From Methanothrix soehngenii GP6 (GTDB lineage Archaea; Halobacteriota; Methanosarcinia; Methanotrichales; Methanotrichaceae), in assembly GCF_000204415.1 (NCBI RefSeq), contig NC_015416.1, positions 1,054,001-1,118,000 on the forward strand: a stretch of 64,000 nt of DNA, in the 5' to 3' direction. The notes under the pieces were generated by a model. It was not told the DNA's origin, did no database searches, and saw only the letters and a program-made list of their open reading frames with translations. Both the position numbers and the translations under genes were made by a program. This document shows, piece by piece, positions 27,275-60,992 of the stretch (within the stretch, counting starts at the first letter, position 1; each line of letters opens with the position of its first letter).

Positions 27275-27874
27275 AAAAGGATGCAGCCCAATCTCATGCA
27301 GTAGTAGTATTTAATGGTATTCGTAGGCCTGGCATGCCTGTGCCTCAAGGGTGGCTACTTTTCTCCCAGAGTACTTTTCTCCTATTTCATTTCATCAACC
27401 TCCTCTGATGGCTGACAGGCTGTCTACAGCATCTGCCACCGGAAAAGAGAGTGATTTCTCTATACCAGAACCGCCTTCATTTCTTCCCACAAAAGGTGGC
27501 CGGATTTGCCTCGCCCCCGCGCATGTGCCTGCCCACATGGACACACATCAACGGGATTCCGGTCGCAGTTATTCCGACTTAGCCATATCAATCGCTGTAT
27601 CCAAGACTCCCCGGCGTTGAGGGGGCCAGAGCACTACCGCGCGTTTAATCGCGCGCGGCGTCCACTGAAAAATCGGTTCGTAAGAATAGATCAAACAGAA
27701 CTGATTGCTCAAATCATCCGGCAACGGCCTAGCCCGGATCAGCAGGTAGGCCATGTGCTGGACGCAGCGCTGCCGGAGGGTCGAGGGAGATGAGCATCAC
27801 AAGCGAGCAATCTAGATCAATACCGCTTTTGGCGTCACCAAAAGAAGATTATCTGCACCCATCCATTTTACCAT
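27275..27874. other. intergenic region with one hairpin repeat copy
   Basis: 600 bases without a credible gene. It contains the inverted copy of the GC-rich hairpin repeat (27597-27665). Open frames here have proline/arginine-rich composition and no ribosome sites. Confidence 0.4.
27597..27665 (-). repeat. GC-rich hairpin repeat, inverted copy
   Basis: On the minus strand it reads GTGGACGCCGCG, a CGCGCG palindrome, then CCCCCTCAACGCCGGGG and CTTGGATAC, matching the family at 57.1-59.3 kb. As in the other copies it is preceded by a T-run (ATTTTTCAGTGG). Confidence 0.65.
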
Positions 27875-56486: not shown

Positions 56487-56595
56487 CTAATTGCTTCTTA
56501 CAGCATCGTCATAGAAGCCCTCTTCAAAGAGGTGGCGGGGGCGGCATCAAGCCTCGTCTCCGATTCCGAGAGCAGATGCGCTATCTCATCGTCAG
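56487..56595 (-). pseudogene. broken HEPN toxin partner of the MNT gene
   Basis: Just after the MNT stop the minus strand reads DDEIAHLLSESETRLDAA in one frame and RHLFEEGFYDDAVRSN-stop in the next. Together they match the start of HEPN (HepT-like) proteins, which continue SRAYYAMFHAA. A frameshift separates the pieces, and the C-terminal RX4-6H catalytic region is missing. Only the antitoxin-side gene remains intact. Confidence 0.65.
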
Positions 56596-56918
56596 GCAAT
56601 CTTGATACCCTCAGATAGGACGTTGCTTAAAAATGAAAAAGACTTTTTGGCTTCAAAATCATCCTGAGAGAGAACCTTTACGGATATATCTTCTCCTGTT
56701 TCCAGCAGAATATCGAAGGTCAGGCCGATCAGCTCTCTGCGCAGCCGGAAGTCCTCTCTGTCCACTACTACCAGAAGATCGATATCCGAGTCGGGCCGAT
56801 CTGTGCCCCTGGCAACAGAGCCAAAGAGGGTGATGCTCTGGATTTGGTCTCCGTAAGACTGAACTGCCCTCTTTATGAACTCATCAATGGCATTTTGCTT
56901 GCTGGAATCCATGGACAT
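56592..56918 (-). CDS. MNT-type minimal nucleotidyltransferase (HEPN/MNT antitoxin)
   Basis: 108 aa. GSVARGTDRPDSDIDLLV (33-50) is the GSx10DxD signature with both metal aspartates, and a downstream DILLETGEDISVKVL strand follows. In intact systems the MNT protein AMPylates and neutralises a HEPN RNase encoded next to it. The neighbour here is a decayed fragment, so this is an orphan antitoxin or a free nucleotidyltransferase. Confidence 0.85.
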   Translation of the reverse strand: MSMDSSKQNAIDEFIKRAVQSYGDQIQSITLFGSVARGTDRPDSDIDLLVVVDREDFRLRRELIGLTFDILLETGEDISVKVLSQDDFEAKKSFSFLSNVLSEGIKIA

Positions 56919-57322
56919 CTCTCCAGAAAAGTTATGTTTTCATTGTATTTAAGACTCAGACTGCGGCCTCTTCAGTCTATCCTCCTGCTCGGTCTCTTTC
57001 TCCGCTCGCTTGATGGACCTGCTCCTCAAACCAAGAACTAAAATTTGACATCTAACGAATCGACTTGAAGGGGCTGGCCGGCGTGCCTGGCCTGTGCTTG
57101 CATGGAAAGCGGCTGCAAATTTTCTTATGGGACGCCGCGAGTCAGCCTGCGGGCCTCCCGCGCTAGTGCTCTGGGCCCCTCAACGCCGGGGTGGCTTGGA
57201 TACAATCGGAGGCAAGCCGTTTAGGGTGTAATTAATCCTAGTCGATATTCTCATTCTGGCATCCATACGGCCTTATGTCCCCTATAATCCATGATTAGGT
57301 GCTTTAGGCAGGGAGCATACAC
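56919..57322. other. intergenic region with a hairpin repeat
   Basis: 404 bases. It contains the hairpin repeat at 57132-57203. The remaining bases show no credible gene; GGCTGGCCGGCGTGCCTGGCC at 57072 is another GC-rich inverted repeat. Confidence 0.4.
57132..57203 (+). repeat. GC-rich hairpin repeat
   Basis: ACGCCGCGAGTCAGCC, a GGCC/GGCC-type hairpin, CCCGCGCTAGTGCTCTGGG, then CCCCTCAACGCCGGGG and TGGCTTGGATAC. The same order is seen at 59199-59274 and, inverted, at 27597-27665. Two hairpins can form. Confidence 0.7.
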
Positions 57323-58130: not shown

Positions 58131-58175
58131 GTGCACGCCGCGAGTTGTCCTGCTGACCTCCTGCGCTATGTTTGG
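58131..58175 (+). repeat. degenerate hairpin repeat start
   Basis: GTGCACGCCGCGAGTTGTCC follows a T7 run (58121-58127), as in the other copies. Similarity fades after GCGCTATG. Probably an eroded member of the family. Confidence 0.5.
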
Positions 58176-58345
58176 GGGCGCGGCTTATGGTCGCGGCCGG
58201 CCAGGCGAGGGCGGTTAAGCTGTGGACTCATAGAGCGCGTCCTAAAGTCTATTATTGCCGATTCGAGGAGACCTATATTGAGGTCCCCGGAGACCGGAAT
58301 GGTTATGAAAGAGCTGTTTGGCAAGCGCAGGGCGCGACTACGCCT

Positions 58346-58560
58346 TCATACCATGACCTCTTCATATCTTGCAGAGATCGTTGGCTTTGGAATAGGTATC
58401 CTATCCTCCTTCAGCCCTTCCAGATGCAACTCTATAGCTTCTTTCATCAGTTCTGCCGTCTCCTCCTCGGTTTCGCCCGCGGAAACCACTCCAGGGAGAT
58501 CTGGCAGTATGCGGAGTAATTACCCTCACCCTTCTCAATGATTATCGTGTATTTGGCCAT
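58346..58560 (-). pseudogene. hicB: frameshifted hicB antitoxin gene
   Basis: MAKYTIIIEKGEGNYSAYC is a standard HicB start. One base is missing after the Cys codon; beyond it the frame reads DLPGVVSAGETEEETAELMK and continues to KPTISARYEEVMV-stop. In HicB these are one RNase-H-like domain (YSAYCPDLPGVVSAG). A single-base deletion is the simplest explanation. Confidence 0.8.
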
Positions 58561-58646
58561 CCAAGATATCCTCTGTGACTGCCTTTGGTGTTCACCAATC
58601 GCCAGCCATCGGCCTCGATCAGTTTTATGGCATCTCTGATCCTCAT
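58542..58646 (-). pseudogene. hicA: truncated hicA toxin gene
   Basis: MRIRDAIKLIEADGWRLVNT followed by KGSHRGY is the first half of a HicA mRNA-interferase, including the catalytic His in GSH. The frame then runs into the hicB start and stops after 34 codons; the normal second half (about 25 residues) is absent. Order hicA-hicB is as usual. Confidence 0.8.
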
Positions 58647-58707
58647 TTGTGCCTCCAAGTATGCATCAGGTTTCTACAGATATTCATCATTTTGGATTCT
58701 TTTCAGT

Positions 58708-59198
58708 GGGTGCCGCGAGTCGGCCCTCCGGGCGGCAGGCAATGGGGGCCCCTCAAAGCCAGGGAGATCAGAAAAAGCCGTCGATGGTTTTGGATTGTGA
58801 TATATAAAAGGAAAAACTCGCCAGGAGGGGCTGGCCAAAGTCTTCAACTGCTTTTATGAGGCTTGAAAGATCTCGACTGTCGGCATAGTTGAGGTCTTGA
58901 ATCCAGGGCTGTTATCAAGGCTAGGATCGATCTACACAGACTGTTTCTTTTTGTGCAAGCCGCGAGTCGGCCCTCCGGGACGCAGGCAAATAGGGCCCCT
59001 CAAAGCCAGGGAGATCAGAATAAGCCGTCGATGGTTTTGGATTGTGATATATTAAAGGAAAAATTCGCCAGGCGGGCCGGGCCAGAAGTTTGAACTGCTT
59101 TAATGAGGCTCGAAAGATCTGGACTTTCAGCATAGTTGAGTTCTCGAATCCAGGGCTGTTATCAAGGCTAAGATTGATCTAAACAGACTGTTTTTTTT
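58708..59198 (+). repeat. two tandem 247-bp repeats with hairpin head, TATA-like and T-run elements
   Basis: Unit starts (GCCGCGAGTCGG) fall at 58712, 58959 and then 59205, a period of 247 and 246 bases. The two full units are highly similar. Each has the GC-rich hairpin, then GTGATATATAAAAGG (58797-58811) or GTGATATATTAAAGG, about 130 bases of conserved sequence, and a T-run (TTTCTTTTT; T8 at 59191-59198). The layout resembles a repeated promoter-RNA-terminator cassette. Confidence 0.65.
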
Positions 59199-59274
59199 GT
59201 GCACGCCGCGAGTCGGCCTGCTGGCCTCCCGCGCTAATGCCCTGGGCCCCTCAACGCCGGGGTGGCTTGGATAC
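59199..59274 (+). repeat. GC-rich hairpin repeat following the tandem
   Basis: GTGCACGCCGCGAGTCGGCC, GGCCTCCCGCGCTAATGCCC, GGGCCCCTCAACGCCGGGG and TGGCTTGGATAC, nearly the same as the copy at 57.1 kb. It begins directly after T8. Confidence 0.7.
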
Positions 59275-59498
59275 AATTGGAGGGGAGCCGTTCAAGGTTT
59301 GGGAAGCAATATGATGAGTGTTTTCGGATGCTGAAAGGGCACTTGAGATTTTTCTTATAAATATAAGTTTATAATTAACGGCATTCCCCTCAAGAGAAGA
59401 CAATATACTATCCTTCATCTCGTTTCCCTAGTGATGTTCATAGCAATTCCTCATACGATCTATTATCCTTGGGGTATATGGATCATATATGTCTACCC

Positions 59499-60587: not shown

Positions 60588-60992
60588 TCGAAACATTGCC
60601 ATGTTCATCATTGTAGGGCGATCTTGGAGAGCATTCCCAACAAAGACAAACAGGAGATTGCCGATAAGCTAAAAGAGGCATCGTATGACGAGATGAAGAT
60701 GCAAGAACTGGCGAAGGAGTTGAGAGATCGAGGGTACGATCCTGCTGCAGAGACAATCGACAGGTTCAGATTCGATCTCTGGAACTATAAGGCGTATCCC
60801 AAGGCCCATTGGAAGAGGATACGAACCACAAACGTCATTGAGCGCATCAATAAGGAATTGGGGCGCAGAAGCAGACCTGTGGGAGCATTCCCGAGCGATC
60901 AATCCCTGATGAGATTAGCAGGATGCATCATGATAAATATAAATGAAGAATGGGTCACAGGTAAAGAGTATTTAACGATGGACGTAGAGTAA
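60588..60992 (+). pseudogene. IS256-family transposase remnant (C-terminal third)
   Basis: It opens CHVHHCRAILESIPNKDKQE and continues with FDLWNYKAYPKAHWKRIRTT and RINKELGRRSRPVGAFPSD, then SLMRLAGCIMININEEW: the C-terminal part of Mutator/IS256 transposases including the last acidic-residue region. The N-terminal two thirds, with the first two catalytic aspartates, are missing. No inverted repeats are visible. Confidence 0.85.

Follow-up and report, generated by a model that had tools for sequence, protein, structure and literature searches.

What kind of element is the GC-rich double hairpin that recurs between the genes of this region, and what accounts for its many copies? The window, by which we mean the whole 64-kb stretch of DNA analysed here (G000:C1:1054001–1118000), belongs to a Methanothrix genome (G000) consisting of a 3,008,626-bp chromosome and an 18-kb contig. 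Methanothrix is a major archaeon in the conversion of acetate to methane. The element proves to be real, structured and apparently undescribed; with a probability of about one half, we favour the reading that it is a non-autonomous, REP/MITE-like structured repeat, spread by viruses and by recombination. A covarying repeat of Methanothrix chromosomes and viruses that stands beside toxin–antitoxin modules would be a handle on gene-module movement in this genus, and would let REP-like or attC-like elements be tested in archaea that lack their known enzymes.

Six elements in the window

The element has a core of approximately 75–90 bp, lying within a conserved unit of roughly 140–250 bp, and runs from a pyrimidine-rich stretch through a GC-rich head hairpin and a tail hairpin (4–5-bp stem) to (A/C)GGC. 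The window holds six, one on the minus strand at 27.6 kb and five on the plus strand between 57126 and 59279. The first of the five (57126–57208; 80.7 bits with the covariance model, CM, described below) combines a GAG-type head with a type A tail (CCCC-TCAACGCC-GGGG), and its nearest gene, to the left, is a small nucleotidyltransferase-like reading frame on the minus strand (56592–56912; function inferred by eye). The last (59197–59279) has the same head and tail, with a T8 run immediately upstream, and the two are 91% identical over 96 bp; the minus-strand copy (27592–27667) joins a palindrome head (CCGCGCGCG-ATTAAA-CGCGCGG) to a type A tail. The near-identical order at 57.1 and 59.2 kb and its inversion at 27.6 kb are therefore as the first-pass annotation described them, as is the sharing of the head by tandem units: two 247-bp units (58701–59194, plus strand; 87% alike) are in phase with the flank that precedes the 59.2-kb copy, and each carries a variant element, the first at 58704–58781 (GAG head, TCAAAGCC tail loop; CM 36.1 bits) and the second at 58951–59028 (CM 22.5 bits).

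Two points of that annotation have to be revised. The 58.1-kb copy, taken to be eroded, is a complete element of a second subtype with a type B tail (58137–58228, plus strand), and its best relatives are copies of other species (for example 86% over 92 bp to one on G024:C66 and 82% to one on G024:C49). The different first stem at 27.6 kb, taken to be a compensating change, is an alternative head module. One head form, CGCGAGTC-GGCC..GGCC-TCCCGCG, occurs in 33 of 116 copies genus-wide, and the other, CCGCGCG-loop-CGCGCGG, which the 27.6-kb copy carries, in the remaining 83; since both recur across the genus and no intermediates were seen among the 116, the swap is not pairwise compensation.

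Between two of the elements lies a HicB/HicA-like toxin–antitoxin remnant (58346–58700, minus strand; HicB_lk_antitox match at G000:C1:1112379–1112510, E 2.3e-8, the HicA part being read from the sequence). We rejected it as a cassette, as contigs of other species with a matching hicBA have no element match. A partial match at 26.27 kb was likewise set aside as a further copy; it extends over 14 bp only and looks like chance.

Copy number and distribution

With the 59.2-kb element as query, its own genome gave 24 places, of which 20 passed E<0.01, and we place about 22 copies on the chromosome. This exceeds the several copies first noted, and clears the limit of a handful below which the first-pass annotation would have held its reading refuted. 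At the genus level, 13 of 26 genomes were matched by DNA search. With a covariance model (R1) trained on 33 copies, about 155 copies came to light in 15 of the 26, at 1–35 per genome, and there was no match outside the genus at E≤1e-4 in the 212 other genomes of the class (238 including the genus; stricter filters). The family is genus-restricted. Truncated copies occur (for example L104, L108 and L195/L208).

The element matched no family recognised at first reading, and this holds: an Rfam 15 covariance-model search gave no gathering-score match for it in the window, with only unrelated matches far below gathering when 57.0–59.5 kb was searched alone; phage and plasmid collections contained no match; and no published Methanothrix repeat turned up in the literature searched.

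A covarying tail hairpin

The structure of the element is under selection. Its tail hairpin combines a freely covarying stem with a fixed 8-nt loop (TCAANGCC/TCCAGGCC), the loops being mostly of the form TCNNNGCC. Tails fall into type A (stem NCCC/GGGN', loop TCAACGCC), type B (stem GNCGC/GCGNC, loop TCAAGGCC) and type C (stems CCAC/GTGG, GCAC/GTGC and others). When 124 copies were anchored on the loop only, pair 2 of the stem was Watson–Crick in 119, by comparison with 69 after the 3' arms had been shuffled, and pair 4 in 113 versus 52. The covariation score was 0.18 versus 0.05, exceeded that of all 500 shuffles and collapsed when partners were slid (MAFFT and model alignments), a signal that arises partly between subtypes and for which both controls, the shuffle and the slide, are limited. 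The covarying pairs that the first-pass annotation asked for as a test are present, in the second hairpin; the head helix hardly varies and so speaks neither for nor against structure at that end. Single-sequence folding energies were no better than those of shuffled sequences (z +0.3 to −1.8). An H-type pseudoknot, pairing the GCC of the loop with the GGC after the stem, is disfavoured by reasoning rather than by computation, because a 1-nt linker would need to span the stem.

Mismatches in the tail stem were more often A.C (G.U on the opposite strand) than G.T (17 versus 7, P 0.06), which hints weakly that an RNA, if there is one, comes from the opposite strand. The claim that the element always adjoins a T-run stands for its own species, in which a run of at least four T lies just upstream of 16 of 18 copies (random 18-mers drawn from the window have one in 5.7% of cases), and fails elsewhere: in other species the adjoining sequence is rich in pyrimidines, and 34 of 105 copies have a T4 run.

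Genomic context and same-orientation clusters

By simple codon-based gene calls, which are approximate, 64 of 65 copies are intergenic. Counts of gene ends at most 150 bp from a copy favour 3' over 5' ends (54 versus 25, some of the loci being mutually orthologous), and bacterial REPs are likewise described near gene 3' ends (PMC3733652). No overall rule of orientation relative to host genes was seen. Copies cluster: adjacent pairs at most 5 kb apart number 7 in G000 (0.7 expected) and 8 in G024 (1.9 expected), and 19 of 21 neighbours 0.3–6 kb apart share an orientation (P 1e-4), although these pairs are not all independent since some are recent duplications. At shorter range, tandem copies are 59–66 bp apart and inverted pairs 96–189 bp apart.

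Direct copies enclose, among other genes, relBE, a PIN toxin pair (vapBC), HicB (hicBA), DUF4258/MqsA-like pairs and ParE. Among the matches listed for G024, 6 of 15 HicB/ParE genes lie within 1 kb of an element, by comparison with 2.4% expected from coverage (P 8e-7), a null that ignores the shared preference of these genes and the elements for variable intergenic regions.

The clustering, the excess of pairs, the modules between direct copies and the HicB/ParE enrichment would all be expected of an integron attC-like cassette boundary, that is, a structured site in which the paired stem counts for more than its sequence and at which site-specific recombination, chromosomal or viral, would swap the small modules lying between same-orientation copies. 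Integron attC sites and CALINs, including those of archaeal integrons (PMC9668308), share with the Methanothrix element a folded site of free stem sequence, toxin–antitoxin cargo and one-orientation arrays with small gene modules between the sites. They differ in that the Methanothrix element has a fixed loop instead of conserved ends and is confined to one genus. Further, the integron integrase model TIGR02249 exceeded its curated cut-off in none of the 26 genomes, so that IntI above that cut-off is lacking; CALINs, too, may lack IntI. The boxes RYYYAAC (R'') and GTTRRRY (R') were found, on either strand, in 4 of 116 copies, no excess over the 2.4–2.9 of shuffled sequences. In G019 a repeated segment reaches past the element into the end of a CRISPR array, as in ordinary duplication; no fixed crossover point emerged, and toxin–antitoxin genes and elements may simply share variable regions. 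Taken together, we regard an attC-like site as an unlikely but live alternative.

CRISPR-Cas genes are neighbours of several copies (the cas genes identified by eye), and cas1/cas2/cas4-like genes lie beside elements in at least three genomes (L098, L110, L083, L089 and L196). At L089:3070–5675 a CRISPR array end and an element are duplicated together and flank a ParE-type toxin–antitoxin pair on both sides. Separately, fragments from the 3' end of one large gene recur in several species, each adjoining an element (L090, L161, L164, L178 and L188); in L090 (G019:C196) the gene has 1294 aa and is type IIG restriction–modification-like by eye.

Copies on viral contigs

The element is carried on viruses. 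In IMG/VR the exact tail pattern was found in three contigs and a viral subtype pattern in four more; scanned whole, these seven (14.9–37.8 kb, completeness not known) hold one or two copies each. A related viral contig, G245, had no copy, and the GAG-head pattern was absent from viral contigs. A stretch of 8,982 bp in one of the seven, L274, matches a contig of a Methanothrix bin (G024:C59, L113) at 100% identity; the element was rejected as the integration site of this virus, since the copy on G024:C59 is bordered by viral sequence left and right. Tandem units of small genes, bounded by the element, distinguish L272, L273 and L274 from one another. Such a difference would again suit an attC-like site, although L272 looks like a tandem duplication.

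In one viral group the element stands between an ArdC-like operon (by eye) and small ORFs. In another it follows the stop of a 96-aa gene and precedes the Shine–Dalgarno sequence and start codon of a 166-aa gene, always in the same orientation and upstream of a terminase-like gene (by eye). Paired stem positions have changed together in L298, and more distant relatives have a different GC-rich hairpin sequence at the same site. This placement suggests a further reading, namely a structured RNA in the untranslated regions of viral and host mRNAs, encoded on the strand opposite to that given here (5'-CCAAGCC-NNNN-GGCGTTGA-NNNN-...-CGCGCG hairpin-purine run-3'). The fixed viral orientation, the joint stem changes in L298 and the A.C excess described above argue for it. 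The lack of any orientation rule relative to host genes, the weakness of the wobble bias and the absence of an Rfam match argue against it, and we judge an RNA role, too, an unlikely but live alternative.

Persistence and turnover between species

At a radical-SAM (rSAM) locus, a single element is present in G014 and G012, two in G009 and the arrangement element–relBE–element in G015; none was found in G020 and G007, and the orientation is opposite in G019 and G021. The module of relBE and element recurs, 88–91% identical, at another locus in G014. Two species hold this module at different loci, and two others have the single rSAM element without relBE. This contrast of a 'filled' with a single-element allele is one more point in favour of an attC-like site. 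At another locus a type B element is common to four species and 83–94% identical, and its intergenic flanks are 39–82% and the neighbouring coding sequence 73–90% identical; at this one orthologous site the element is therefore about as conserved as coding sequence, unlike its flanks, which also suits an RNA. From the variation at the rSAM locus, the relBE module at two loci and the conserved type B site we conclude that copies both persist and turn over.

A clean empty allele was not found at the rSAM locus, where presence, absence and inversion differ by species and the far flank is not alignable. The trpC locus was rejected for an empty-site comparison, its flanks being unalignable because gene content beyond trpC differs in relatives. 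Neither terminal inverted repeats nor target-site duplications were seen in the repeats or alignments, which offered no clean empty site on which to look for them. Some copies have persisted by vertical descent, many intergenic sites have been reached, and tandem and same-orientation clusters have formed.

A proposed REP/MITE-like repeat and its possible movement

The preferred reading, a non-autonomous REP/MITE-like repeat, rests on comparison with bacterial REPs, the GTAG/GTGG-tagged palindromes associated with RAYTs (PMC2817692, PMC3733652). Like these, the element is short, intergenic and downstream of genes, and has covarying stems with subfamilies, dimers and clusters, the closely spaced tandem and inverted pairs recalling REP dimers. 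The tag, GT(A/G)G at the foot of a REP hairpin, is a mixed case: GTGG stands before the head in 12 of 16 copies of this species but in 15 of 100 from other species, most of which lack it. The element differs in its two hairpins in place of one palindrome, its longer conserved unit, its copy number (tens, where REPs reach hundreds) and the lack of a linked RAYT/Y1 transposase. With MITEs it shares small size, non-coding sequence, intergenic position and a copy number that varies among species; the terminal inverted repeats and target duplications of MITEs were not found. As no linked RAYT, no excess of attC boxes and no IntI above cut-off was found, we file the element as neither REP nor attC.

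PF01797 (Y1 transposase) genes are present in 18 of the 26 genomes, and among the loci examined none is flanked by element copies, the only one near an element being in G000, 0.55 kb away; G009 (12 copies, 93% complete) and G010 have elements without any Y1 transposase gene. By analogy with single-stranded-DNA hairpin repeats, protein recognition is likely to involve the fixed loop and the GTGG-like tag. Methanothrix viruses or proviruses would carry copies from genome to genome, and multiplication inside a genome might come from recombination between direct copies or from a transposase acting in trans; small gene modules, often toxin–antitoxin, could be dragged along with moving copies. Against the preferred reading count the missing transposase linkage, the failure to find target-site duplications or a clean empty site, and the undistinguished folding energies; conservation above the flanks at the orthologous site is explained no worse by a host function or by gene conversion than by selfish mobility.

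The same-orientation sites might instead be structure-recognised recombination sites of a new kind, common to the viruses and chromosomes of this one methanogen genus, between which a non-integron recombinase would capture and lose toxin–antitoxin cassettes; we hold this to be a long shot. Functionless debris of viruses or insertion elements, decaying in intergenic space, would account for the truncated copies and the viral carriage but not for the strong compensatory change and orthologous-site conservation, and is very unlikely.

Two other repeats were noticed. A further dispersed repeat of ~105 bp lies in the window at 60595–60700, with four other sites in the same genome (86–92%) and several relatives (about 73–79%), and a second, unrelated repeat (CACAGAGGCGCAGAGCACACAGAGG..ACGCGGAGA) stands beside the element at some intergenic loci (L162, L085 and L104).
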